Source of the DNA: Acidobacteriota bacterium | GTDB lineage: Bacteria; Acidobacteriota; Blastocatellia; UBA7656 | Direction: 5' to 3' | Assembly (NCBI GenBank): GCA_016201275.1 | Contig: JACQDB010000130.1 | Coordinates: 1 to 48,518, forward strand | Length of the DNA: 48,518 nucleotides | In this document: one piece after another, positions 22,735 to 33,673 of the stretch | How positions within the stretch are numbered: position 1 is the first letter of the stretch | Layout of the letters: the number at the start of each line of letters is the position of its first letter | Notes under the pieces: generated by a model | Seen by the model: only the letters and a program-made list of their open reading frames with translations | What the model was told of the DNA's origin: nothing | The model's database searches: none | Position numbers and translations under genes: made by a program

Positions 22735-22847
22735 TTTTTCCCCTTTAACAAAAATTGCATGACCCGGAAACTGGCGGCGCTGCTTTGCCTGGTGACGCGC
22801 TTGGCTTTGCCAATCGGAAACAGATAAACGATAATCAACGCCGACTT

Positions 22848-25800
22848 ATGCCGGAATATAGCTTTCGTTTGACCGCCATCTTTCAGACTTTTGAAAATGA
22901 TACGCACTTGGCCGAAGCGCTCTTCTTCCCGGAAGTCTCGCGCTTTGGCGCGAATCTGAAAAAGCTGGAAGCGGCGCTACAGGAAAATGCCGCAAACCTG
23001 GTTGAAACTGCACCGGCGCTGACGCTCTATCGTCGTCACGCGACCGGTGAAGTCGAACTCGGCAAGGCGCAAGTCGTCATCCAGCCGCCGCCGAAATCGC
23101 TGGCTTGGCGCAATGCGGTCGAGTTGTCTTTCGATGTGCTGCAATTTCTGCACGGCGACGACGCGGCTATCGCTTACATTCCGGCACTCGGCATCGAAGT
23201 CATCGCCAAAAATCTGCAAGACTTGGCACAAGCGATTCCTGCACAAATTCACGCCCATCTGCTCAGACTCAAGCAGACCACTTCGCTGGGCGCATTGATG
23301 TGGTACGAGCGCATAGAAAAACTCACGCTGGTCAGTTCAACTTATGAAGCGACGCTTCGCACGCCGAAACAGCTTGTTCGCAGCCTTGAGGTCGCAAGCG
23401 AAGAAAAGCCCATCTTGAACGATGTCGCTACCGATTTGACCAAAGAGAAATTGCCGCCTGCTTATGAACTCGACGCCAACGTGCAGCGCCTCGCCGATGT
23501 ATTAGCCGGGCGCAATCCGCGCAGCGTTCTGCTCATAGGCAAATCCGGGGTCGGCAAAACCGCTGCGGTGTATGAACTGGTGCGCCGTCGTCAGGGTTTT
23601 CGTTTAGGCCGCACGCCATTTTATGCGACGAGTGGTTCGCGGCTGGTCGCCGGTATGTCGGGCTTCGGTATGTGGGAAGAGCGTTGCGGCAAAGTGTGGC
23701 GCGAGGCCGCCAAACAACAAGCGATTCTGCATTTCGGCAATCTTCTGGAATTGATGGAAGTCGGCAAAAGCGCCGCGCACGAGCAAGGCATCGCCTCATT
23801 TTTTCGCCCCTACATACGGCGCGGCGATTTGCTGTGCATCGTCGAATGCACGCCCGAACAGTTGCCGATTATCGAACGCGAAGACCCGCATCTGGCCGAA
23901 GCGTTTTTTCACATCAAGGTTGCCGAACCAACCCTTGAACAAGGCCGCACCATTTTGTTGAACTACGCGGTTGCCGCAGGCAAAAAAGGCAACACGCCGA
24001 TTGATTATGACGGCTTGGAAATGCTGGATCGTTTGCATCGCCGCTATGCGAGTTATTCGGCCTATCCCGGACGGCCTCTGCGGTTTTTGAAAAATCTGTT
24101 GCAGGATCGCCAGGACGAAATTATTTCGGCAGGCAAAGTCACCGAGCGCTTTGCCGCCGAGACCGGCTTGCCGCTCTTTCTGCTCGACGATGCGGTGGCG
24201 CTCGATTTGCCGACCACGCAAGCGTGGTTTGGCGAGCGCGTCATCGGCCAACCGGAAGCGGTCAATCTCGTCGTTGATTTATTGGCAACCGTGAAAGCGC
24301 GGTTGACGCGGGCGGGCAAGCCTATCGCGTCCTTGATGTTCATAGGGCCAACGGGAGTTGGCAAAACCGAAATGGCGAAATCGCTGGCGGAATTTTTATT
24401 TCGCAATCGCCATCGCATGATTCGTTTCGATATGAGCGAATACGCCGATGAATTGGCGGTGTCGCGCTTGATTGGCGGCGAGTGGGGCAAAGAGGGTTTG
24501 CTGACTGCCAAAGTGCGCGAGCAGCCGTTTGCAGTGATTCTGTTGGATGAATTTGAAAAAGCGCATACGGCATTCTTCGATCTGTTGTTGCAGGTGTTGG
24601 GCGAAGGGCGCTTGACCGATTCCGTTGGGCGCGTTGCCGATTTCACCAACGCCGTAGTGATTATGACCTCGAACCTCGGCGCGGAAACTTATAAACAGAG
24701 CGCGTTAGGTTTTCGTGAAGCCGCAAGCATGAGCGAAAAAGCCCGCGATCATTTTATGAAAGCGGTGCGCGCTTTTGTGCGTCCCGAATTTTTCAATCGG
24801 CTGGATCGCATCATTCCCTTTGCGCCGCTCGATGAAGCGACGGTGTTGCAGATTGCTCATCGGGAATTGGCAAAGGTGACAAGGCGCGATGGCTTGTTGT
24901 ATCGCGGCGTTGAGGTGCAGTTGAGCGATGACGTGGCGCGTTATCTGGCGCGGCGCGGTTACGATGCGCGCTATGGAGCGCGGCCTTTGAAACGCGCCAT
25001 TGAACGGGAGTTGCTGGTGCCGCTTGCCGATGGCTTGAACCGGCAACCGGCGGAGGTGTCGTTGCGCGCCGATGTCAAAGTGGGGGATGACAAACTCGCG
25101 GTCGAGGTGTCTATAAAGACCGATGAAGCGGGGCGAATGATTTCGTATGCGGCAAAAGGCGCGCCGTTTGCCGAGCTTGCCAAACAGGTAGCCGCGTTGC
25201 GCCGCGACGCGCAGAACTTAAATATGAATGCGGCGGCGGTCGAGATTCGCAACGAGATTTTTACTTTGGAAAGATTGGCGAAACGCTTGGCGCGCAAGAA
25301 ATGGCAAGACGCCGAGCCGACCACTGCGCTGGCGCGTTTGCCGGAACTCAAACGCCAGATACAGAAGTTGGAAGAGATCGTTGAGCGCGTTTCGACTTTG
25401 GAAGATGCAGTGCTGTTGTGCTTTTACGGCAAACAAGAAATTGAGAAAGAGGCTTTGCAGGCACGGCTCATCGAACTTTCCAGAGCGTGGGACGCGGTGT
25501 TGTTGCAGGTTTACGGTTCGCAATTTCGTCAGCCCGATGACGTAACGCTGGCGGTCTTCGGCGAGAACACCGCATGGTTGTTTGAACTGGCGCGTGCGTA
25601 TTACGAGCTTGCCGCCGAAACCAATACCGGCATAGAAGTTTGCGAATTTGTCACGCCGACCTCAGAGGAGAGCGAAGCGATCAAGGCGCGCATCAAGGGC
25701 GGCGAAAAACTTATGGTCTATGTGTTGTTTGATCGCGTGACGGTGAAGCGACCGGTTGAACGGGTGAAAGAGTTTTTGCAGACGCCGCGCTCGACGACGT

Positions 25801-26141
25801 TGGGAATCGCTGTGCGCTTGCAAGGCGAGTTGGTTTTTCCCCGTTACGAACCGGAGCGCGGCCTGCACAGTTTACGAAAAGACACCCAGACGCATAAAAA
25901 TTTGGTGCATACCAGCGACGTGCCGTTGGCCGATTTCGCGCCGCCCAACGGACTGGAAAAACGCGGCAGCATCAATCATCAGGAGCGCCGCCGCGATTAT
26001 AATCGCAACGACGGCACGGTCGAAGATTTGGCCTTGAAAGAAAAGTTTTTCATGTACCGCGATGAGTTCAAGCTGGCGCTCCGTCAGGCCATTGAAAAGC
26101 GCCTCAGCAATGACGCCAAAGCCCTGTTGGAAGAAGCGTAA
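22848..26141 (+). CDS. Clp-like double AAA+ ATPase with release-factor-like C-terminus
   Basis: This 1097-aa protein has a noncanonical N domain (about 1-200). D1 has Walker A GKSGVGKT (about 230) and the pore-loop segment GMSGFGMWEERC, but the Walker B region reads HFGNLLEL, lacking Asp-Glu. D2 is intact: GPTGVGKT (about 497), LLDEFEKAH (about 563), TSNLG, RPEFFNRLD and GARPLKR. The tripeptide LGF (about 618) lies where ClpC and ClpA dock ClpP. Residues about 830-1097 resemble release factor domains 1, 2 and 4: coiled coil, AYYELAAETNTGIEV, GLHSLRKD...HTS (29 residues spaced as in RF2) and RRRDYNRNDGTVEDL; there is no GGQ. ATG at 22848 is used because the upstream frame only offers TTG. It is first in the ATPase cluster. 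Confidence 0.85.
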   Translation: MPEYSFRLTAIFQTFENDTHLAEALFFPEVSRFGANLKKLEAALQENAANLVETAPALTLYRRHATGEVELGKAQVVIQPPPKSLAWRNAVELSFDVLQFLHGDDAAIAYIPALGIEVIAKNLQDLAQAIPAQIHAHLLRLKQTTSLGALMWYERIEKLTLVSSTYEATLRTPKQLVRSLEVASEEKPILNDVATDLTKEKLPPAYELDANVQRLADVLAGRNPRSVLLIGKSGVGKTAAVYELVRRRQGFRLGRTPFYATSGSRLVAGMSGFGMWEERCGKVWREAAKQQAILHFGNLLELMEVGKSAAHEQGIASFFRPYIRRGDLLCIVECTPEQLPIIEREDPHLAEAFFHIKVAEPTLEQGRTILLNYAVAAGKKGNTPIDYDGLEMLDRLHRRYASYSAYPGRPLRFLKNLLQDRQDEIISAGKVTERFAAETGLPLFLLDDAVALDLPTTQAWFGERVIGQPEAVNLVVDLLATVKARLTRAGKPIASLMFIGPTGVGKTEMAKSLAEFLFRNRHRMIRFDMSEYADELAVSRLIGGEWGKEGLLTAKVREQPFAVILLDEFEKAHTAFFDLLLQVLGEGRLTDSVGRVADFTNAVVIMTSNLGAETYKQSALGFREAASMSEKARDHFMKAVRAFVRPEFFNRLDRIIPFAPLDEATVLQIAHRELAKVTRRDGLLYRGVEVQLSDDVARYLARRGYDARYGARPLKRAIERELLVPLADGLNRQPAEVSLRADVKVGDDKLAVEVSIKTDEAGRMISYAAKGAPFAELAKQVAALRRDAQNLNMNAAAVEIRNEIFTLERLAKRLARKKWQDAEPTTALARLPELKRQIQKLEEIVERVSTLEDAVLLCFYGKQEIEKEALQARLIELSRAWDAVLLQVYGSQFRQPDDVTLAVFGENTAWLFELARAYYELAAETNTGIEVCEFVTPTSEESEAIKARIKGGEKLMVYVLFDRVTVKRPVERVKEFLQTPRSTTLGIAVRLQGELVFPRYEPERGLHSLRKDTQTHKNLVHTSDVPLADFAPPNGLEKRGSINHQERRRDYNRNDGTVEDLALKEKFFMYRDEFKLALRQAIEKRLSNDAKALLEEA

Positions 26142-26269
26142 CAATGGATAAAATCTCTTGTTGAGTGAGTGGAATACTTAGCCTTGAACCTTAGACAATA
26201 CGCCCTGACGCTGACTTTTCGACTGCATACTATGAGTAGCGCAAGGTGTCATGCAAAGGATAGAAGAAA

Positions 26270-27232
26270 ATGGTAATTAAAGATCAAGTTTTTATAGGTG
26301 ATTGTCGGGAAGTTCTTCGTGAATTTCCAGAGAATTCGATTTCTGTATGTATTACAGACCCGCCTTACAACTATGAATTCATTGGTCACAAGTGGGATGC
26401 CGCCGAAGTTGATCGCCGATTAAAACGAGTTCAAGATAGTAATACGTTGGTTAAAAATATTCCCTACGGTAGTGGACTTGCCGGAGGCGTTCGTAATGCC
26501 CGTTGGTATAAGAGAGTGAGAGAAAATATACTGGACTATCAACACTGGTGCAGGGAATGGGCAAAAGAAGTTTTCAGAGTATGTAAACCGGGCGGCATCG
26601 TTGCGGCGTTTAACAGCACACGCACTATAGCGCACGTCCAGATTGCTTTGGAAAAGGTAGGTTTTTATACGCGAGATTGTCTGGTTTATCGCCGTTCGAG
26701 CGGCATTCCCAAAGGCTTGAATGTGCAGGCCAAACTCAAAGAGAAAGGCTTGCCTGAGCATCAACAATGGCAGGGCTGGCATAGTTGTCTGAGAAATGAA
26801 TGGGAAGCAATTGTTGTCGTGCAAAAACCGCTGATGAATAATTATCTTGATACAATGCTCCAATATGGAGTTGGTTTATTTCATGCAGTGAATGAGGATG
26901 GTTCTTTTCAGTCAAACATCATCGAGAATATTCCCAGAGAGAAGAATGGAAAATATAATGTTCATTGTACCGTCAAACCTTTAGTCTTGATGGAAAAGCT
27001 AGTTGATTTATTGGTGCCAGCATCCAAAGAGCATATTGTCTTAGACCCGTTTTCTGGCTCCGGTACTACGCTTGTGGCGGCAAAGAAATTAGGCAGAAGT
27101 TATGTGGGAATTGAGATCGTGCCAAAATACGTGGAGATTATTAACCAGCGGTTGTCTGATACCGCCGTAGAGAATCGTAGCCTTAGCGAAGAACCTTATA
27201 CTCTAAAGCTTTGGCCTGAAGGAAAGCTTTAA
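26270..27232 (+). CDS. Type II DNA methyltransferase (beta class, DPPY)
   Basis: This 320-aa enzyme methylates adenine N6 or cytosine N4 using S-adenosylmethionine. The catalytic DPPY is N-terminal (Asp30 in TDPPYNYEF) and the AdoMet-binding motif DPFSGSGTT is C-terminal (about 259), which is the order of the beta class, typical of M.HinfI- and M.RsrI-like enzymes. The ATG at 26270 follows AAAGGA. Base composition is clearly more AT-rich than in the flanking ATPase genes (about 37 percent GC in one 60-base sample). Its 3' end overlaps the convergent endonuclease gene by 50 nt. It protects host DNA against the neighbouring endonuclease; the recognition sequence cannot be read off. Confidence 0.92.
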   Translation: MVIKDQVFIGDCREVLREFPENSISVCITDPPYNYEFIGHKWDAAEVDRRLKRVQDSNTLVKNIPYGSGLAGGVRNARWYKRVRENILDYQHWCREWAKEVFRVCKPGGIVAAFNSTRTIAHVQIALEKVGFYTRDCLVYRRSSGIPKGLNVQAKLKEKGLPEHQQWQGWHSCLRNEWEAIVVVQKPLMNNYLDTMLQYGVGLFHAVNEDGSFQSNIIENIPREKNGKYNVHCTVKPLVLMEKLVDLLVPASKEHIVLDPFSGSGTTLVAAKKLGRSYVGIEIVPKYVEIINQRLSDTAVENRSLSEEPYTLKLWPEGKL

Positions 27233-27746
27233 TCTCAAATCCAGTCAGTTCTTTGATAAATCCGTAGGTCATATCACCGGTGAAAACGGTCCAACCGCCA
27301 GTCTTACAGGCGGTAATTGCCGCCTGTAGATTGTCTTCTCGGACAATTAACAACACCGGTTCATAGCCGTTTTTTCGCAAGAGAGGAGCAGAAGCTTTGA
27401 ACTTTTTGAGAGTTCCTGAATCTCCCGACCCGATACGATATTTTGTATCAATCGCCTGATTGCCCACGATTAAATCGCAAGGCTCATCGGAGCCAAAACG
27501 TAAAGCGGGGCCAAAATCTTGACAAGTTTTTTTACAGACCTCAACAATCAGACGCTGCCAGCACATCCCTAACTCTCGCCCCCAGTATTGACGATTGGTA
27601 CGTTTCAATTCGGGTGTTATCCCAAATACCTCCATCAACAAATCAGTTTCATTCTTTGCTTCATCAAATATCTTATCGGTAAACGAAGTTTGATACTGGC
27701 TGAGAATCTCACCCAGCGTTTTTACCAGATTTTCATTCTCGCTCAT
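27183..27746 (-). CDS. Type II restriction endonuclease, PD-(D/E)XK type
   Basis: This 187-aa protein is the partner nuclease of the adjoining methyltransferase. The likely catalytic core is CDLIVGNQAIDTKYR, an Asp followed by D-x-K, in the usual spacing of PD-(D/E)XK nucleases. Further parts are QYWGRELGMCWQRL and a late hydrophobic strand WTVFTGDM. The frame is open to 27971, but ATG at 27746 overlaps the stop of the controller gene as ATGA, which is the classical controller-endonuclease arrangement. The family name and site specificity are unknown to me. Confidence 0.8.
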   Translation of the reverse strand: MSENENLVKTLGEILSQYQTSFTDKIFDEAKNETDLLMEVFGITPELKRTNRQYWGRELGMCWQRLIVEVCKKTCQDFGPALRFGSDEPCDLIVGNQAIDTKYRIGSGDSGTLKKFKASAPLLRKNGYEPVLLIVREDNLQAAITACKTGGWTVFTGDMTYGFIKELTGFEIKAFLQAKALEYKVLR

Positions 27747-27973
27747 TTCCCCTCTTTCAAGCAGTCGCTGAGTTTTACGCCTAAGGCTTCCGCTATACGA
27801 TTCGCATTTACCAATGTGATATTGCGCTCGCCTCTTTCGACTGCGCCAATATAGGTTCGATGCAAACCTGCTAGGTCCGCTAAAGCCTCTTGCGAAACTC
27901 CCTGTGCCAGTCTTAGTCTCTTGATATTCTGTGCAAATACCTCTGTCACATTCATAGGAGGTATTAAACACAT
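27743..27973 (-). CDS. Restriction-modification controller (C) protein, HTH_3
   Basis: This 70-76-aa protein is a helix-turn-helix regulator of the Xre/C-protein type: QNIKRLRLAQGVSQEALADL, then GLHRTYIGAVERGERN and IAEALGV. Controller proteins delay endonuclease expression until methylation is established. Two starts are possible, ATG at 27973 and ATG at 27955 (MNVTEVF); the second matches the usual family length. Neither has a good ribosome site, and the transcript may be leaderless from the ATG at 27973. The stop overlaps the endonuclease start. Confidence 0.9.
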   Translation of the reverse strand: MCLIPPMNVTEVFAQNIKRLRLAQGVSQEALADLAGLHRTYIGAVERGERNITLVNANRIAEALGVKLSDCLKEGK

Positions 27974-27978
27974 AAGAT

Positions 27979-28008
27979 GACTATTAGGCGACAGACTATT
28001 AGTAGCAA
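27979..28008 (-). promoter_or_regulatory. C-box-like operator and promoter of the controller-endonuclease operon
   Basis: GACTATTAG occurs twice at 27979-27987 and 27994-28002, 15 bp apart. Each copy is ACTA-T-TAG(T/G), a near-palindrome resembling the C-box core of controller operators. On the minus strand TTGCTA (28008-28003) and TAATAG (27986-27981) make a -35/-10 pair spaced 16 nt, and the start site would fall at about 27974, at the ATG. One repeat overlaps the -10 and the other the spacer, which suits autoregulation. ORF2 begins on the other strand only 19 bp away. Confidence 0.6.
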
Positions 28009-28026
28009 TGAGTTTCGGTATATGAA

Positions 28027-30561
28027 ATGAAAATCACTGTCCCGATTTATATTCAAAAGCATTCAGGAAAAGGCGCGCCGCCGCAGACGCATATCTTGCG
28101 CCCGTTGTTTCATCCGCACCTCGAAGTGCGCGGCGAAGACCTCAATCGTGCGATGACCAAGATGGCGCAGAAACTGCGGCGCGAGTGCGGCGAACTCGGC
28201 AGCCAGAGGCGGCACGAACAATTATCCCGCTTCGCCTTTGCGCCTGATCTCGAAGACCACTTCTGCAAATTCAATTTCGAGATGCTCAGTCGTCGAGCGC
28301 GTTGCCATCTGCTGGTGGTTGTCTGCAAGAGCCTGGGGCGCAAGATCGCTTTTTCGCCGAGCCTGCCGAATTTGTGGTTCGAGATTCAGCGCGGCGAAAC
28401 GCTCGCTACCCGCGCCACCGAAGTCTTGACGCAGTACTTCCGCGAGCAAGAAAGAAAACATGGCAAAGAAGCGTTGATGCCGGAAACCCTGTCTTTGGAC
28501 GGCAAAGCCTGGGTGACGACTTTGGAAATCAGCATTCAACCGCCGACCCTCGCGCAGGTCAAACCACCGAATCTGTTCGCTATGCTGGGCGGCGGCGAAA
28601 CCATGAACGGCGCGCAGGAACTGGAAAAGACCGGGCGCTGTCTGGATTATCTATACCCCGACGAATTGCATCGCGTCATTTTTCGTGATGCGGAAGTCGC
28701 GGAATTGAGCGCCATTTTGCAAGGCAAAGATCAACGCCCGGTCTTGCTAATCGGCGAACGACTGGTCGGCAAAACCGCTGTCATACACGAATATGTTTAT
28801 CGCCTGGTCGAACAAAAATCCTCGAAATATTCCGCCAATAAGAAGGTTTGGTTGCTGTCGCCGCAGCGTTTGATTTCGGGAATGTCTTACGTAGGGCAAT
28901 GGGAAAATCGTCTGCTCGCTATTTTGAAAGAGGCGACACTGCGCCAGCACCTGCTCTACTTCGATGATTTGCTGGGCTTGTATCAAGCCGGACAAACAGC
29001 GAATTCCAGCCTCAGCGTTGCCGATGTGTTGAAGCCTTATGTGGAAAAACGCAGCGTGCGCTTGTTGGGCGAAATCACTCCGGAAGCCTACAGGGTTTTG
29101 CAGGAACGCGACCGCGCTTTCGCCGATGCGTTTCAGGTGATAGCCATCAAAGAGCCTGATGAAGAGCAGAGCTTTCGTATATTGCTGCACCTGATGCGGC
29201 AACTCGAACGCCAGCACCGTTGCCGATTTTCGACCGATGTTTTTCCTACCGTGATGGACGTGCAGCGGCGTTATGCACGCGACGCCGCGTTTCCCGGCAA
29301 GGCCGCCGTCTTTCTGCAACAACTCGCTGTCAAGTTTCGCAACGAGCGCGTCACCCGCGAAGAGGTCTTGCAACAATTTCACGCCAAGAGCGGTTTGGCG
29401 CTGACCTTTTTGAATGACAGCACACGAGTGCATAGACAGGAAGCGACCGCAGCCATAGGCCAAGAGGTCATCGGTCAAGACGCCGCGATTGCTGCTTGCG
29501 CCGATGTCGTGTCGCTTGCCAAAGCGCGGCTCAACGACACTGACAGGCCGCTGGCAACCTTCCTGTTTTTAGGACCAACCGGCGTCGGCAAAACCCAATG
29601 CGCCAAAGCATTGGCGAAATATTTATTCAGCGATGCCGACAAGATTCTACGCTTCGATATGAACGAATACGCTTCGGCTTATGCGGCGGCGCGGCTTGTC
29701 GGCACCTTTAATCAACCCGAAGGTTTGTTGACCAGCGCCGTGCGTCGCCAACCGTTTTCCCTAGTCCTGCTTGATGAAATCGAAAAAGCTCATCCCGATG
29801 TTTTTAATCTGTTGTTGCAGGTGATGGGCGATGGGCGCTTGACTGATGCGCTCGGTCGAACCGTTGATTTCACCAACGCGATCATTATTTTGACCTCGAA
29901 TCTGGGCGTCCGGGAAGCTGCGAAAAATCTAGGTTTTCGTCAGGACGAAGCCCGCGAATCGCACGTTTATCTACAGGCCGCCGAAAAATTTTTCAAGCCG
30001 GAATTCGTCAATCGCCTCGACCGCGTAGTGCCGTTTGAACGCCTGACCCGCGCCGATGTGAAGCGCATCGCGCAGGGCTTGATGCAGAATATTTTTGCGC
30101 GGGAAGGTTTGCTGCGGCGCAAGTGCATACTGCAAGTTGACGATGCGGCGATGGCCGCCATCATTGACATGGGCTACCATCCGCAACTCGGAGCCAGAGC
30201 CTTGAAGCGTATGCTGGAGCGTCAATTGACGCAGCCTGTGGCGGCGCGGCTTGCGACTCTGAAGCCCGACGCGCCGACCGTCATCAAAGTTTTTCAGTCG
30301 TCGTATGAACTGGTCGTGGAGGTTGCGGCGTTGATGGGCGCAGCACCGAACGAAGAGACCGCGACAGCGCTGGCGTTGATGGAGCCGCGTCGAATCATCG
30401 AACTGGTTGAAGCGAGCCTTGCGCGCATAGAAGTTGACATCGCGCAATTGCGCCCACAAGGCTTAATCAATCCCGATGACCTAGAGGCGCAGCATCTGGC
30501 TTACTTTCACATCAAGGAGCAGGCCGAGCGCGTGCGCGAAATGTGCAAGCGCTCCACCTGA
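28027..30561 (+). CDS. Clp-like double AAA+ ATPase 2
   Basis: This 844-aa protein has the same plan as the first ATPase: an unusual N domain (about 1-215), then D1 with Walker A GERLVGKT (about 239) and a preserved acidic Walker B, LLYFDDLLGL (about 309), and the pore-loop segment GMSYVGQWENRL. D2 has GPTGVGKT (about 514), LLDEIEKAHPD (about 581), TSNLG, KPEFVNRLD and GARALKR, with LGF at about 634. The final 80 residues are coiled-coil-like. The frame stops at TGA 30559-30561 but stays open beyond it with no further stop into the next gene. It starts at ATG 28027, close to the restriction controller operator, and no Shine-Dalgarno sequence is evident. Confidence 0.85.
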   Translation: MKITVPIYIQKHSGKGAPPQTHILRPLFHPHLEVRGEDLNRAMTKMAQKLRRECGELGSQRRHEQLSRFAFAPDLEDHFCKFNFEMLSRRARCHLLVVVCKSLGRKIAFSPSLPNLWFEIQRGETLATRATEVLTQYFREQERKHGKEALMPETLSLDGKAWVTTLEISIQPPTLAQVKPPNLFAMLGGGETMNGAQELEKTGRCLDYLYPDELHRVIFRDAEVAELSAILQGKDQRPVLLIGERLVGKTAVIHEYVYRLVEQKSSKYSANKKVWLLSPQRLISGMSYVGQWENRLLAILKEATLRQHLLYFDDLLGLYQAGQTANSSLSVADVLKPYVEKRSVRLLGEITPEAYRVLQERDRAFADAFQVIAIKEPDEEQSFRILLHLMRQLERQHRCRFSTDVFPTVMDVQRRYARDAAFPGKAAVFLQQLAVKFRNERVTREEVLQQFHAKSGLALTFLNDSTRVHRQEATAAIGQEVIGQDAAIAACADVVSLAKARLNDTDRPLATFLFLGPTGVGKTQCAKALAKYLFSDADKILRFDMNEYASAYAAARLVGTFNQPEGLLTSAVRRQPFSLVLLDEIEKAHPDVFNLLLQVMGDGRLTDALGRTVDFTNAIIILTSNLGVREAAKNLGFRQDEARESHVYLQAAEKFFKPEFVNRLDRVVPFERLTRADVKRIAQGLMQNIFAREGLLRRKCILQVDDAAMAAIIDMGYHPQLGARALKRMLERQLTQPVAARLATLKPDAPTVIKVFQSSYELVVEVAALMGAAPNEETATALALMEPRRIIELVEASLARIEVDIAQLRPQGLINPDDLEAQHLAYFHIKEQAERVREMCKRST

Positions 30562-30585
30562 CGCCTTGCGAATACGAAAGGTCGT

Positions 30586-31374
30586 TTGACCTCGCGTGCC
30601 AGAGGGCGCAGCATCAAGGCTTCGCAATTCACGCTGCGACAAAGCGGCGCAAGTGAGCTATGGCAACGCCTCGTTGCGGCGGTGGATTTGCGTTCCTTGC
30701 TCAAAGAGTTGGCGACGAATGCGCCGCCGCATGGCGAACGTCTGAACGATTATCTGGCGGAGATGCTGCGGGAAAGCGCTTTGCTGGAAGCGATGGCGGA
30801 AACTCCGGAAGACGATGCAGAGGCGGGCGCAATCATCCTCATTCGTTCGTTGGACGAGGGGCGCAAACGCGAGCGCGAAGCCTTGGTGAAGGCTTATACG
30901 GCGGTGTTCGAGTATAAATTTTCTGCGAAGGTGGATCGCTGGCGCGAGGTTGAAGAGATGACAGCGTTGAATGCCGAAGCGCTGATCGTGCGCGGCGGCA
31001 ATGCCGCAATCGTTGCCGCTGGCGAAGTCGGCACGCATCTGTTTTATGCCGCGCCGGAAGGGCTTGCGCCGCTTCAAGTGCGCGTTTTGCCGTTGCCGAA
31101 AAATGATGCAGCGAAGACATTGCGCGAGGATGTCGAACTATTAAAATCAGGTGCAACGAAACCGCAGAATCAAGAGGGTGAGTCGAATCCTGAAGGGTCG
31201 CCCGCTGCATACGGTGAGTTGTTGCCGGTGGTCAGGGTTTATGAAAGCGAAGGCGCGACGCTTGATTTGCGTTCGGGCTTGATGACCTTGAAAATGCCAA
31301 CCTCGGAAGAGTTGCGTGCCTTGATGCTGGCGATGTTGCCGCTGCCTTACGAGTTTGAAGACGAGTTGAATTAA
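30586..31374 (+). CDS. Release-factor-like protein without GGQ domain
   Basis: This 262-aa protein reads like a bacterial class I release factor stripped of its peptidyl-hydrolysis domain. Comparable pieces are a helical N part, AIILIRSLDEG, ALVKAYTAVFEYKFSAKVD (RF2 domain 2 helix), IVRGGNAAIVAAGEVGTHLF (the G..A...L..E.G.H of domain 2), VRVLPLP, and near the end VVRVYESEGATLDLRSGL, matching the IRSY...KDLRTG stretch of RF2 domain 4. The GGQ motif is absent and the region between is only about 40 residues. It has no ATG; TTG at 30586 (after AAAGG) is the likely start, and the frame is shared with the upstream ATPase. It is tightly followed by the third ATPase (1-bp gap). Confidence 0.7.
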   Translation: MTSRARGRSIKASQFTLRQSGASELWQRLVAAVDLRSLLKELATNAPPHGERLNDYLAEMLRESALLEAMAETPEDDAEAGAIILIRSLDEGRKREREALVKAYTAVFEYKFSAKVDRWREVEEMTALNAEALIVRGGNAAIVAAGEVGTHLFYAAPEGLAPLQVRVLPLPKNDAAKTLREDVELLKSGATKPQNQEGESNPEGSPAAYGELLPVVRVYESEGATLDLRSGLMTLKMPTSEELRALMLAMLPLPYEFEDELN

Positions 31375-31375
31375 G

Positions 31376-33673
31376 ATGCCGACGTATCGTTTCCCCATTT
31401 TAATCTGGCAGGATTTTGAAGGCGGGTTCACGGCGCTGCCGGTCGAGCGCTCTTTCAGCCGATACGCCGCCATCGGGCGCACCGCAAACGATGCGGTCTT
31501 TCAACTGAAAGAGTATTTGACCTACGTGTATGACAAGTACCCTTGGACTGCCGAGCCGGATTTTGCGGACGCCAAATTGATTCACCTCAAAGCCGAAGCG
31601 CGACCCGAATATCAGCTTGAAGAAAGCGTCAACCGGCGTTTGCAGACCAACATCTATCCGGTGGATAAAACTTTCACTTTGCGCGTCGCCTGTGTGCATG
31701 GCAAACAACAAAGCGGCCTGCTGGTCTGCGCTCTGCCGTTGCTCGAAATTCAGTTTTATTACTACGAAGAGAAGACGCTCAGGGAACTGGCGACCACCTA
31801 TGTGCAGGAGAGTTTGAAGGGGTTGACGCCGCGTGAATTGTCGCGGTTTCTGCCGCCCCAATCGTATCAACTCGATGAAATCGTGTTGAGTTTGTCGCAC
31901 CAGGAACGCCGCTACACGTATCAACCCTCGCTTGACACCTTGAGCCGTGTGGCGGAACCGCTCGGCGATAAACAGTTGCGAAAACAATATTCGGCGGCCT
32001 GGGAACGCGATGCCGAGGTCAGAGATTTAGTCCAACGCATAGGCCGCGAAAAAGCCAACGTCATCATCGTCGGCGATGGCGGCATCGGCAAAACGACAGT
32101 GTTGGTCAATGCCGTGCGCGACATTGAAAGACAAACCGAACCGCGAGAAGAAGGCGAGGACGAAATTTTTTACAAGCATCGCTACTGGTTGACGAGCGGC
32201 GCGCGCATCATCGCAGGGATGCAATATTTGGGACAATGGGAAGAGCGTTGCGAAGAGTTAATCAACGAGCTATCCACTATAAATGGTACATTGTGCGTAG
32301 GCAGCATACTGGATATAGTGTTGACCGGTGGGCGCGAGGCGAGCGCCAGCATCGCGGCATTTTTTCTGCCCTTTTTGCAGAGCGGCGAATTGCGTTTGGT
32401 TGGCGAAGCGACGCCTGCCGAACTTGATGCTTGTCGCCGAATGCTGCCGGGCTTTGTCGGGTTGTTTCAGATACTTGATCTGCAACCCTTCAATCGTTCG
32501 CAAGCCACGGCGATTCTCAAACGCGCCGTTGAAACATTCACGCGCAATTATCGCGTTGCAGCGGCGGACCAGCTGCCGGAATTAATCTATCGTCTGTTTC
32601 ATCGCTTCGCGCCGTATCAGGCGTTTCCGGGAAAAGCTATGGCGTTTCTGGAAGGCGGTTTCGAGCGCGCCGAAGTGGATGGCAAAAACACTTTGCGCGC
32701 AAGCGACATCGTGCAGCAATTCATTGACCAGACCGGCTTGCCAGAACTGTTTTTGCGCGATGAACTGCCGCTCGCGCAAGAAGACGCCATAGCGTTTTTT
32801 ACCAGTCGCGTGATTGGACAAGCTGCCGCCTGTCACCAGGCCGCAAGTCTGGTGACGACTTTCAAAGCCGGACTCAACGACCCGCAAAGACCTATCGGGG
32901 TGCAATTATTTTGCGGCCCCACGGGCGTAGGCAAAACCCAACTCGCCAAAGCGCTCTCCGAATATTTCTTCGGACACGGCGAAGAGCGCAATCGTTTGGT
33001 GCGACTCGACATGAGCGAATATGGCACGTTGGGCGCGGCGGAACGCTTGATTACCAACGCCAACGGCGAGCCTAGCGATTTGATTAAGCGCGTCCGTCAA
33101 CAACCGTTTGTGGTGGTATTGTTCGACGAAATCGAAAAGGCGGATGCCCAGGTCTTCGATGTGTTGTTGAGCCTGTTTGACGAAGGGCGCATCACCGACC
33201 GCTACGGGCGCACGACTTCGTTTCGCAGCGCGGTGATTTTGATGACTTCCAATATAGGCGCAGAAAAAGCCGCCAGCATTGGCTTCGACAAAGCCAGCGG
33301 TCGCGCCTTCACCAGCGAGATTCAAGCTTTCTTTCGCCCGGAATTTTTCAATCGCATAGACGCAGTGGTTGCCTTCAACGCCATCAATGAAGCGTCATTG
33401 CTGGCCATCACGCGCAAAGAGTTGGCGGAAATCTCCGCACGCGAAGGTTTGTTGGCTTATGACACAAAATTGCGCTGCACGGAACGCTTGGTGCAGCGCG
33501 TCGCCGAAGCCGGTTATGATGCGCGTTATGGAGCGCGCCCTTTGCAACGCACGATTGAACAAATGGTCGTTGCGCCGTTGTCGCGGTTCCTGCTTGAGCA
33601 TCCCGAAGCGAAAGGCAAAATCGTCGAGGCCGATGTCACCGACGATGGCGTGCGGTTTACGCAATTGTCATGA
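31376..33673 (+). CDS. Clp-like double AAA+ ATPase 3
   Basis: This 765-aa protein has no C-terminal extension. The N domain begins YRFPILIWQDFEGGFTALPV, weakly recalling a HicB-like fold. D1 has Walker A GDGGIGKT (about 229) and GMQYLGQWEERC, but the Walker B region reads LCVGSILDIV with no Asp-Glu pair. D2 has GPTGVGKT (about 512), LFDEIEKAD (about 581), TSNIG, RPEFFNRID and GARPLQRT, with the tripeptide IGF at about 634 where ClpP-binding loops lie. The D2 pore-loop position reads TNANGEPSD rather than GYVG. The start at 31376 follows the previous stop by 1 bp, so translation is likely coupled. Last gene of the cluster. Confidence 0.87.
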   Translation: MPTYRFPILIWQDFEGGFTALPVERSFSRYAAIGRTANDAVFQLKEYLTYVYDKYPWTAEPDFADAKLIHLKAEARPEYQLEESVNRRLQTNIYPVDKTFTLRVACVHGKQQSGLLVCALPLLEIQFYYYEEKTLRELATTYVQESLKGLTPRELSRFLPPQSYQLDEIVLSLSHQERRYTYQPSLDTLSRVAEPLGDKQLRKQYSAAWERDAEVRDLVQRIGREKANVIIVGDGGIGKTTVLVNAVRDIERQTEPREEGEDEIFYKHRYWLTSGARIIAGMQYLGQWEERCEELINELSTINGTLCVGSILDIVLTGGREASASIAAFFLPFLQSGELRLVGEATPAELDACRRMLPGFVGLFQILDLQPFNRSQATAILKRAVETFTRNYRVAAADQLPELIYRLFHRFAPYQAFPGKAMAFLEGGFERAEVDGKNTLRASDIVQQFIDQTGLPELFLRDELPLAQEDAIAFFTSRVIGQAAACHQAASLVTTFKAGLNDPQRPIGVQLFCGPTGVGKTQLAKALSEYFFGHGEERNRLVRLDMSEYGTLGAAERLITNANGEPSDLIKRVRQQPFVVVLFDEIEKADAQVFDVLLSLFDEGRITDRYGRTTSFRSAVILMTSNIGAEKAASIGFDKASGRAFTSEIQAFFRPEFFNRIDAVVAFNAINEASLLAITRKELAEISAREGLLAYDTKLRCTERLVQRVAEAGYDARYGARPLQRTIEQMVVAPLSRFLLEHPEAKGKIVEADVTDDGVRFTQLS

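Follow-up and report, generated by a model that had tools for sequence, protein, structure and literature searches.

In the DNA stretch analysed here, a 48,518-nucleotide contig of an Acidobacteriota bacterium (JACQDB010000130.1 of assembly GCA_016201275.1; hereafter the window), the gene for a ClpB/ClpA-like ATPase, ATP2, ends at a TGA codon, and a second open reading frame (ORF) encoding a release-factor-like domain begins shortly afterwards in the same frame. This arrangement raises the question of whether the two ORFs are two genes or one and, if one, whether the TGA is decoded, is an error or is simply a stop. Judged by their orthologues, the two ORFs are the halves of one fused gene that is whole in other bacteria, and the split most likely represents an everyday mutation (or else a sequence error), not a new kind of decoding. 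The features on which the argument turns are the following.

28027..30561, + strand: ATP2, ClpB/ClpA-like ATPase with two AAA modules, 844 amino acids (aa), ending at the TGA (AAA_2, 2.9e-47; ClpB_D2-small, 9.7e-12; TIGR03346, 396.5 bits, below its cut-off)
30559..30561, + strand: in-frame TGA, found in this genome only (orthologue alignment: sense codon in 45 of 45 aligned orthologues)
30562..30636, + strand: linker from the ATPase to the C-terminal domain, predicted disordered (predicted local distance difference test, pLDDT, below 50 for its 25 residues)
30579..30592, + strand: small hairpin AGGTC-GTTT-GACCT, 3' of the TGA and overlapping TTG 30586; resembles a selenocysteine insertion sequence (SECIS) by loose rules only, which about one third of control positions also satisfy
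30586..30588, + strand: TTG, the earliest possible start past the TGA (Shine-Dalgarno pairing -3.4 kcal/mol)
30562..31374, + strand: C-terminal release-factor-like domain of ATP2, predicted from a profile match, a model and structure comparison; lacks GGQ; folded part about 30648-31371

The ORF coordinates agree exactly with a preliminary description of the locus: the TGA lies at 30559-30561, the next ORF shares the frame of ATP2, and the 8 codons after the TGA (30562-30585) are free of stops. That ORF runs from TTG 30586 to a TAA at 31374 (+ strand, 262 aa), and reading across the TGA yields 1115 codons, the length at which the fusion had been estimated. This geometry is by itself not beyond chance expectation. 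In 20 stretches of this genome together with the window (445,854 bases, ORFs chosen mechanically), 76 same-strand ORF pairs lay no more than 60 bases apart; 17 of these shared a frame, and exactly one stop separated the ORFs in 13 of the 76, the ATP2 pair included. When five of the 16 other same-frame pairs were translated, none was clearly one broken gene by eye: one was an amidohydrolase pair, one a SecE/NusG-like pair and one a polyphosphate kinase with an RNA-ligase-like ORF behind it, and each of the other two contained an ORF that was spurious or unclear. Geometry alone is insufficient to exclude that the two ORFs are same-frame neighbours by chance; the orthologues rule this out, and it is they, not the geometry, that set the ATP2 pair apart.

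Orthologous loci were sought with peptide patterns that all lie within the ATPase, and hence without bias towards fused genes. In a strict set of 49 loci, in which the match to ATP2 extends from residue 30 or earlier to residue 740 or later (L030, L034, L037-L082 and L089), the ATPase and the C-terminal part form one uninterrupted ORF in 47; one of these, L052, is open to the contig end after 224 residues, and two loci of the set, L076 and L077, come from one organism. According to the record titles, the taxa include Acidobacteria, Planctomycetes, Verrucomicrobia, Eremiobacterota and others. The two exceptions are L061, which runs off its contig, and L071, which is frameshifted. The latter belongs to a Verrucomicrobia metagenome-assembled genome in which the frameshift lies in the ATP2 linker, contig coverage is 3.3, and the matches to ATP1 and ATP3, the neighbouring paralogues of ATP2, are fragmented too. 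We considered it as a second genuine broken case and read it as assembly noise, given the low coverage and the neighbours in pieces. In a wider set of 60 loci, 57 are fused, two run off contigs (L061 and L085) and one is broken (L071), with the caveat that part of the 57 (L083-L093) match ATP2 only partially and may be other family members. This set leaves out L094-L098 (29-40% identical, partial, with extensions of 27-67 residues), L035 (at a contig end) and loci from genomes already counted (L001-L007, L019, L029 and L031-L033). A search of 162 genomes of the class, with at most six candidates scored per genome, found a match to ATP2 at E 1e-150 or better in 12: the frame continues into the C-terminal part in nine, is seemingly cut by a contig end in two, and is split in one, the window's own. 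No orthologue split in the manner of the window's was found among the loci and class genomes compared.

The closest relative (G002), which belongs to the same family, carries an open frame of 1114 aa; its identity to the window's is 70% in the ATPase and about 49% in the C-terminal part. The codon alignment of the two is gap-free across the TGA. The frame is therefore whole in orthologues and interrupted here, as expected of a disrupted gene. Over 45 aligned orthologues, the column of the TGA holds a sense codon in every case, variably for Asp, Glu, Ala, Asn and others and never for Cys; these sequences were drawn from fused loci and so inform on the residue in the column, not on the frequency of fusion, and where identity is low, the assignment of the column rests on how the sequences are aligned. 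Because the orthologues have a sense codon there and a single ORF, the TGA is derived and private to this genome, in a variable linker predicted to be disordered. The preliminary description had asked whether the TGA is conserved in orthologues, which alignment answers in the negative; the same-frame linkage on which it had staked its reading is present in the 47 loci.

To what kind of protein do the two halves belong? ATP2 scores 396.5 bits against TIGR03346, the ClpB equivalog of NCBIfam, and does not reach the cut-off of 1232.1 bits. The downstream half has no Pfam or NCBIfam match, and a Pfam search with 33 homologous C-terminal domains returned 19 families, each matched by a single member. 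A profile of the 33 homologous C-terminal parts found RF2 as its top match in the PDB, weakly (E 0.15). The AlphaFold model of the downstream half has a mean pLDDT of 83.2, with the first 25 residues predicted to be disordered. Foldseek matched this model to RF2 at E 4.6e-07, but with a whole-chain template modelling (TM) score of 0.37 and a root-mean-square deviation (rmsd) of 19; among matches with E up to 0.001, whole-chain TM-scores ranged from 0.28 to 0.45 by query length. VIA-align superposed 138 residues on 5mdw chain 7 at Z 16.5 and rmsd 2.8. Thus, the model indicates that the downstream half has the RF1/RF2 fold, in part only, in keeping with the release-factor likeness first proposed for it; the low whole-chain TM-scores suggest that the domains are arranged otherwise than in RF1/RF2, or that a part is missing. 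The GGQ motif is missing from the window's domain. The string GGQ occurs in two of 46 aligned C-terminal parts (near residue 232 of 275, and at 10 of 242), which we judged to be chance, and in two of 24 C-terminal parts of ATP1. The proposed likeness of the ATP2 pair to the fused ATP1 holds as well: the C-terminal domain of ATP1 (model pLDDT 93.0) gives the same kind of RF2 match (Foldseek 1.1e-08, TM-score 0.42), and the 1097 aa given for ATP1 correspond to the ATG of MPEYSF inside a 1128-aa TTG ORF at 22755-26141.

The sequence beyond the TGA bears on the age of the stop. Its 270 codons contain no further stop or frameshift. In rate trees of 12 sequences, with the same topology for both parts, the branch of the C-terminal part measured 0.544 for the window and 0.513 for the relative, and that of the ATPase 0.205 and 0.236, respectively; unique changes in the C-terminal part, window to relative, were 12:26, 22:18 and 18:22 with three outgroups. 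This comparison of the two branches gives no sign of faster evolution past the TGA. Four-fold sites of the ATPase part place the window and the relative at a neutral distance of about 0.85. Neutral decay along the whole window branch would produce about 6.7 stops, and zero stops were obtained in none of 400 simulations; the probability of no stop was 0.04 if decay occupied 30% of the branch and 0.27 if it occupied 10%. Measured pairwise against the relative, the ratio of nonsynonymous to synonymous substitution rates (dN/dS) is 0.16 in the ATPase and about 0.27 in the C-terminal part, dS being close to saturation. A domain with neither a further stop nor acceleration suggests that the TGA is young or that the domain is still translated. 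The decay that would mark the downstream part of a disrupted gene, extra stops or a raised rate, is not seen in the domain, and we do not assign established pseudogene status, as an intact domain would be expected equally after a recent event and under continued use.

The same intactness can be read in two other ways. The TGA might reflect an error of sequencing or assembly, or a variant of a minority strain that entered the consensus, with the true gene whole. A single codon is affected, in a single draft genome (162 contigs), the gene is otherwise intact and unaccelerated, and a lone TGA-containing sequence was handled as a possible sequencing error in part of a study of the Sargasso Sea selenoproteome (PMC1088965). 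The neighbours ATP1 and ATP3, however, are whole when compared with the nearest relative, and we regard such an error or variant as unlikely, if worth keeping in mind. Alternatively, the gene might have undergone functional fission, with the halves made as separate proteins and the domain produced by termination-reinitiation at TTG 30586, coupled to ATP3. The downstream ORF is intact and unaccelerated; the in-frame TTG lies 24 bases past the stop with AAAGG just 5' of it; its pairing of -3.4 kcal/mol is at least as strong as at the ATP2 (-3.0) and ATP3 (-2.5) starts; ATP3 begins after a one-base gap; and, with the TTG inside the disordered linker, the folded domain would be complete. Yet 23% of 1000 random positions match this pairing, which is also weaker than that of the MurA (-6.0) and methyltransferase (-5.4) starts, the TTG is the sole start ahead of the fold, and no orthologue was found to be split likewise among the loci and class genomes compared. 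The Shine-Dalgarno test does not discriminate for TTG 30586, and reinitiation there is possible; as an account of the locus, functional fission seems to us rather unlikely.

Next to be considered is whether the TGA could be read through. TGAC is a leaky termination context. The preliminary description had pointed to this context as the one found in prfB, which holds for the four bases, the nucleotide 3' of the TGA being C, but the likeness is superficial. The prfB site requires a +1 shift into another frame, CTT as the codon ahead of the TGA and, further 5', a Shine-Dalgarno-like run. In the window, the codon before the TGA is ACC, no such run was seen by eye just upstream, and a ribosome shifted to +1 would terminate after 9 codons; the downstream ORF lies in frame 0. 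A prfB-like frameshift was therefore rejected. The +2 frame past the TGA stops after 31 codons. Since the +1 frame closes so soon, only same-frame readthrough could join the halves.

Regulated readthrough of this kind, through the leaky TGAC or another signal, would supply a small share of fused protein. It would agree with the context and with the RNA structure predicted around the TGA, the most stable in the gene. In shuffle tests, the fold at 30446-30606 had z of -5.1 (40 shuffles) and -3.7 (300 shuffles); 6 of 300 random genome windows reached z of -3.5 or below, and none of 300 synonymous recodings was as stable. However, the equivalent region of the nearest relative has no strong fold (z -0.6), and much of the window's fold lies 5' of the TGA, where it would already have been melted by a ribosome that had reached the stop. 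The sense codon in all 45 orthologues also speaks against readthrough, as do the two tRNA-Trp genes found, both with ordinary 5-bp anticodon stems. Belinky et al. 2021 (PMC7918605), in the part drawn on here, report that bacterial genes with an in-frame stop but continued signs of selection are widespread, and to this extent readthrough would have company; even so, we consider it quite improbable. More improbable still is a termination-efficiency switch, in which slow UGA termination would give the fused protein and fast termination the ATPase alone, with the stable RNA fold as part of the signal. If it existed, the switch would be a same-frame counterpart of RF2 feedback, acting on a family that itself bears a release-factor fold.

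Reassignment and suppression fare no better. TGA terminates 134 of 328 mechanically chosen ORFs of this genome; it is a normal stop, which speaks against a reassignment of UGA to Trp. Suppression by a short-stem tRNA-Trp, an idea taken from part of PMC13092985, was rejected because both tRNA-Trp(CCA) genes found have 5-pair anticodon stems. Among the tRNA loci read, the TCA anticodon occurs in tRNA-Sec only. Both tRNA-Sec (66 bits, anticodon TCA) and SelB (364 bits) are encoded in the genome, and a hairpin with a G-starting loop lies 22 bases past the TGA, which would suit a reading as selenocysteine. Scored by general numerical rules for SECIS-like hairpins, equally good ones are found after 189 of 563 stops and after 565 of 1692 in-frame codons within ORFs; the TGA lies in a linker; and none of the 45 orthologues has Cys at the column. 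The Sargasso Sea study (PMC1088965), in the part concerned, required at least two Cys-containing homologues; none was seen for the site examined here. Thus, the machinery is present, but the Cys test failed and the hairpin is unspecific, and we rejected selenocysteine, for which the chance appears minute. Dedicated recoding of any form is unlikely, and it is the one item of the causes first listed (fission, nonsense mutation, sequencing error or recoding) that is unsupported, given the sense codon in 45 of 45 orthologues, TGA as a normal stop and a hairpin at background level; the other three cover the likely truth.

Some side observations concern the tRNA genes. The tRNA-Sec gene lies on a 5.2-kb contig (L188, G000:C111) and the selB-like gene on another (L162, G000:C18). 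Elsewhere, L180 (G000:C94:2500-7600) packs 28 tRNA genes into 5 kb; all 20 amino acids are represented at least once, and for several, such as Trp, a further copy exists outside the array. This array is possibly a mobile or viral element.

We therefore return to an ordinary explanation, to which we give slightly better than an even chance: a recent nonsense mutation in a fused gene, yielding an ATPase without its release-factor-like domain. Comparison with the orthologues shows that, in this lineage, TGA replaced a sense codon within the variable, disordered linker. The TGA would most likely act as an ordinary stop, with an 844-aa ATPase lacking the release-factor-like domain as its product, and any production of the domain would depend on ribosomes restarting at TTG 30586 or misreading UGA at a background level. 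Either the event would be recent or the domain would still be under selection. Partial loss of the operon is probably tolerable, because the operon is patchy and the link between ATP1 and ATP2 has already been interrupted by an inserted methyltransferase pair. In-frame stops in conserved bacterial genes are widespread and mostly short-lived according to the part of Belinky et al. drawn on here, a pattern that agrees with a recent nonsense mutation.

Several observations weigh against this explanation. The family is represented by 7 genomes in 5 genera, the window's genus by this genome alone, so fixation is unproven. Continued translation of the domain would agree with its intact state, its dN/dS (dS being close to saturation) and the proximity of the ATP3 start, and the Shine-Dalgarno score of TTG 30586 is no worse than those of the ATP2 and ATP3 starts. 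The genome carries tRNA-Sec and SelB, and the TGA is embedded in RNA with unusually strong predicted structure.

The split gene belongs to an operon of three paralogous ClpB-like ATPases, the other parts of which are as follows.

22755..26141, + strand: ATP1, intact ClpB-like paralogue of ATP2, fused to a release-factor-like C-terminal domain of its own
26270..27971, both strands: DNA methyltransferase (26270-27232, +) and convergent ORF (27183-27971, -), between ATP1 and ATP2
31376..33673, + strand: ATP3, third ClpB-like ATPase, 765 aa, intact

ATP3 terminates soon past its D2-small domain. A single base separates the stop of the downstream ORF from the ATG of ATP3, so translation through this stretch may help ATP3. 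The operon (window 22755-33673) is also present in Acidobacteria, Planctomycetes, Verrucomicrobia and Eremiobacterota, and in many fetched loci the three genes adjoin in the order ATP1-ATP2-ATP3; its distribution is patchy, with 2 of the 7 genomes of the family and 12 of the 162 of the class. In the nearest relative, ATP1 and ATP2 are 156 bases apart, without the methyltransferase and convergent ORF pair, and a 218-aa ORF (L099, 13159-13815) lies between ATP2 and ATP3, where the window has one base. The methyltransferase at 26270-27232 is type II-like. The convergent ORF has no Pfam, NCBIfam or PADLOC match, and it is perhaps the nuclease partner of the methyltransferase. Full-text literature searches returned nothing on a three-ATPase operon, the papers found being judged off point from titles and the starts of abstracts. 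Perhaps the operon is linked to the ribosome in function.

These results correct the annotation: the downstream ORF is the severed C-terminal domain of an Hsp100-like ATPase and not a stand-alone release-factor-like gene. The comparison also reveals a three-ATPase operon spread over several phyla, in which two of the ATPases carry release-factor-like domains lacking GGQ. Were that domain to bind ribosomes, the operon would tie an unfoldase to termination or rescue, and the window's truncated ATP2 would be a natural deletion of the release-factor-like domain.

How does the locus compare with known systems? Like ClpB/ClpA (Hsp100), ATP2 has two AAA modules and a D2-small domain, but it scores far below the ClpB and ClpA cut-offs, has a release-factor-like C-terminal extension and occurs as one of three paralogues in a single operon. 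The predicted fold of its downstream half resembles that of the class-I release factors RF1/RF2, from which the window's domain differs in lacking GGQ and in its position at the C-terminus of a ClpB-like ATPase. With the prfB (RF2) autoregulatory site it shares a TGAC near a release-factor-like coding region, whereas its two halves are read in one frame and a +1 shift would run into a stop after nine codons. The bacterial selenoprotein genes described in part of PMC1088965 likewise have an in-frame TGA followed by a stem-loop with a loop G, in genomes with selenocysteine machinery; here, in contrast, 45 homologues lack Cys, the TGA is unshared and lies in a linker, and the stem-loop is of background frequency. 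As in the cases of Belinky et al. (PMC7918605), a single in-frame stop precedes a part that still looks selected, although theirs, as far as that portion of the study goes, are chiefly stops common to at least two species, whereas the one described here is in one genome.

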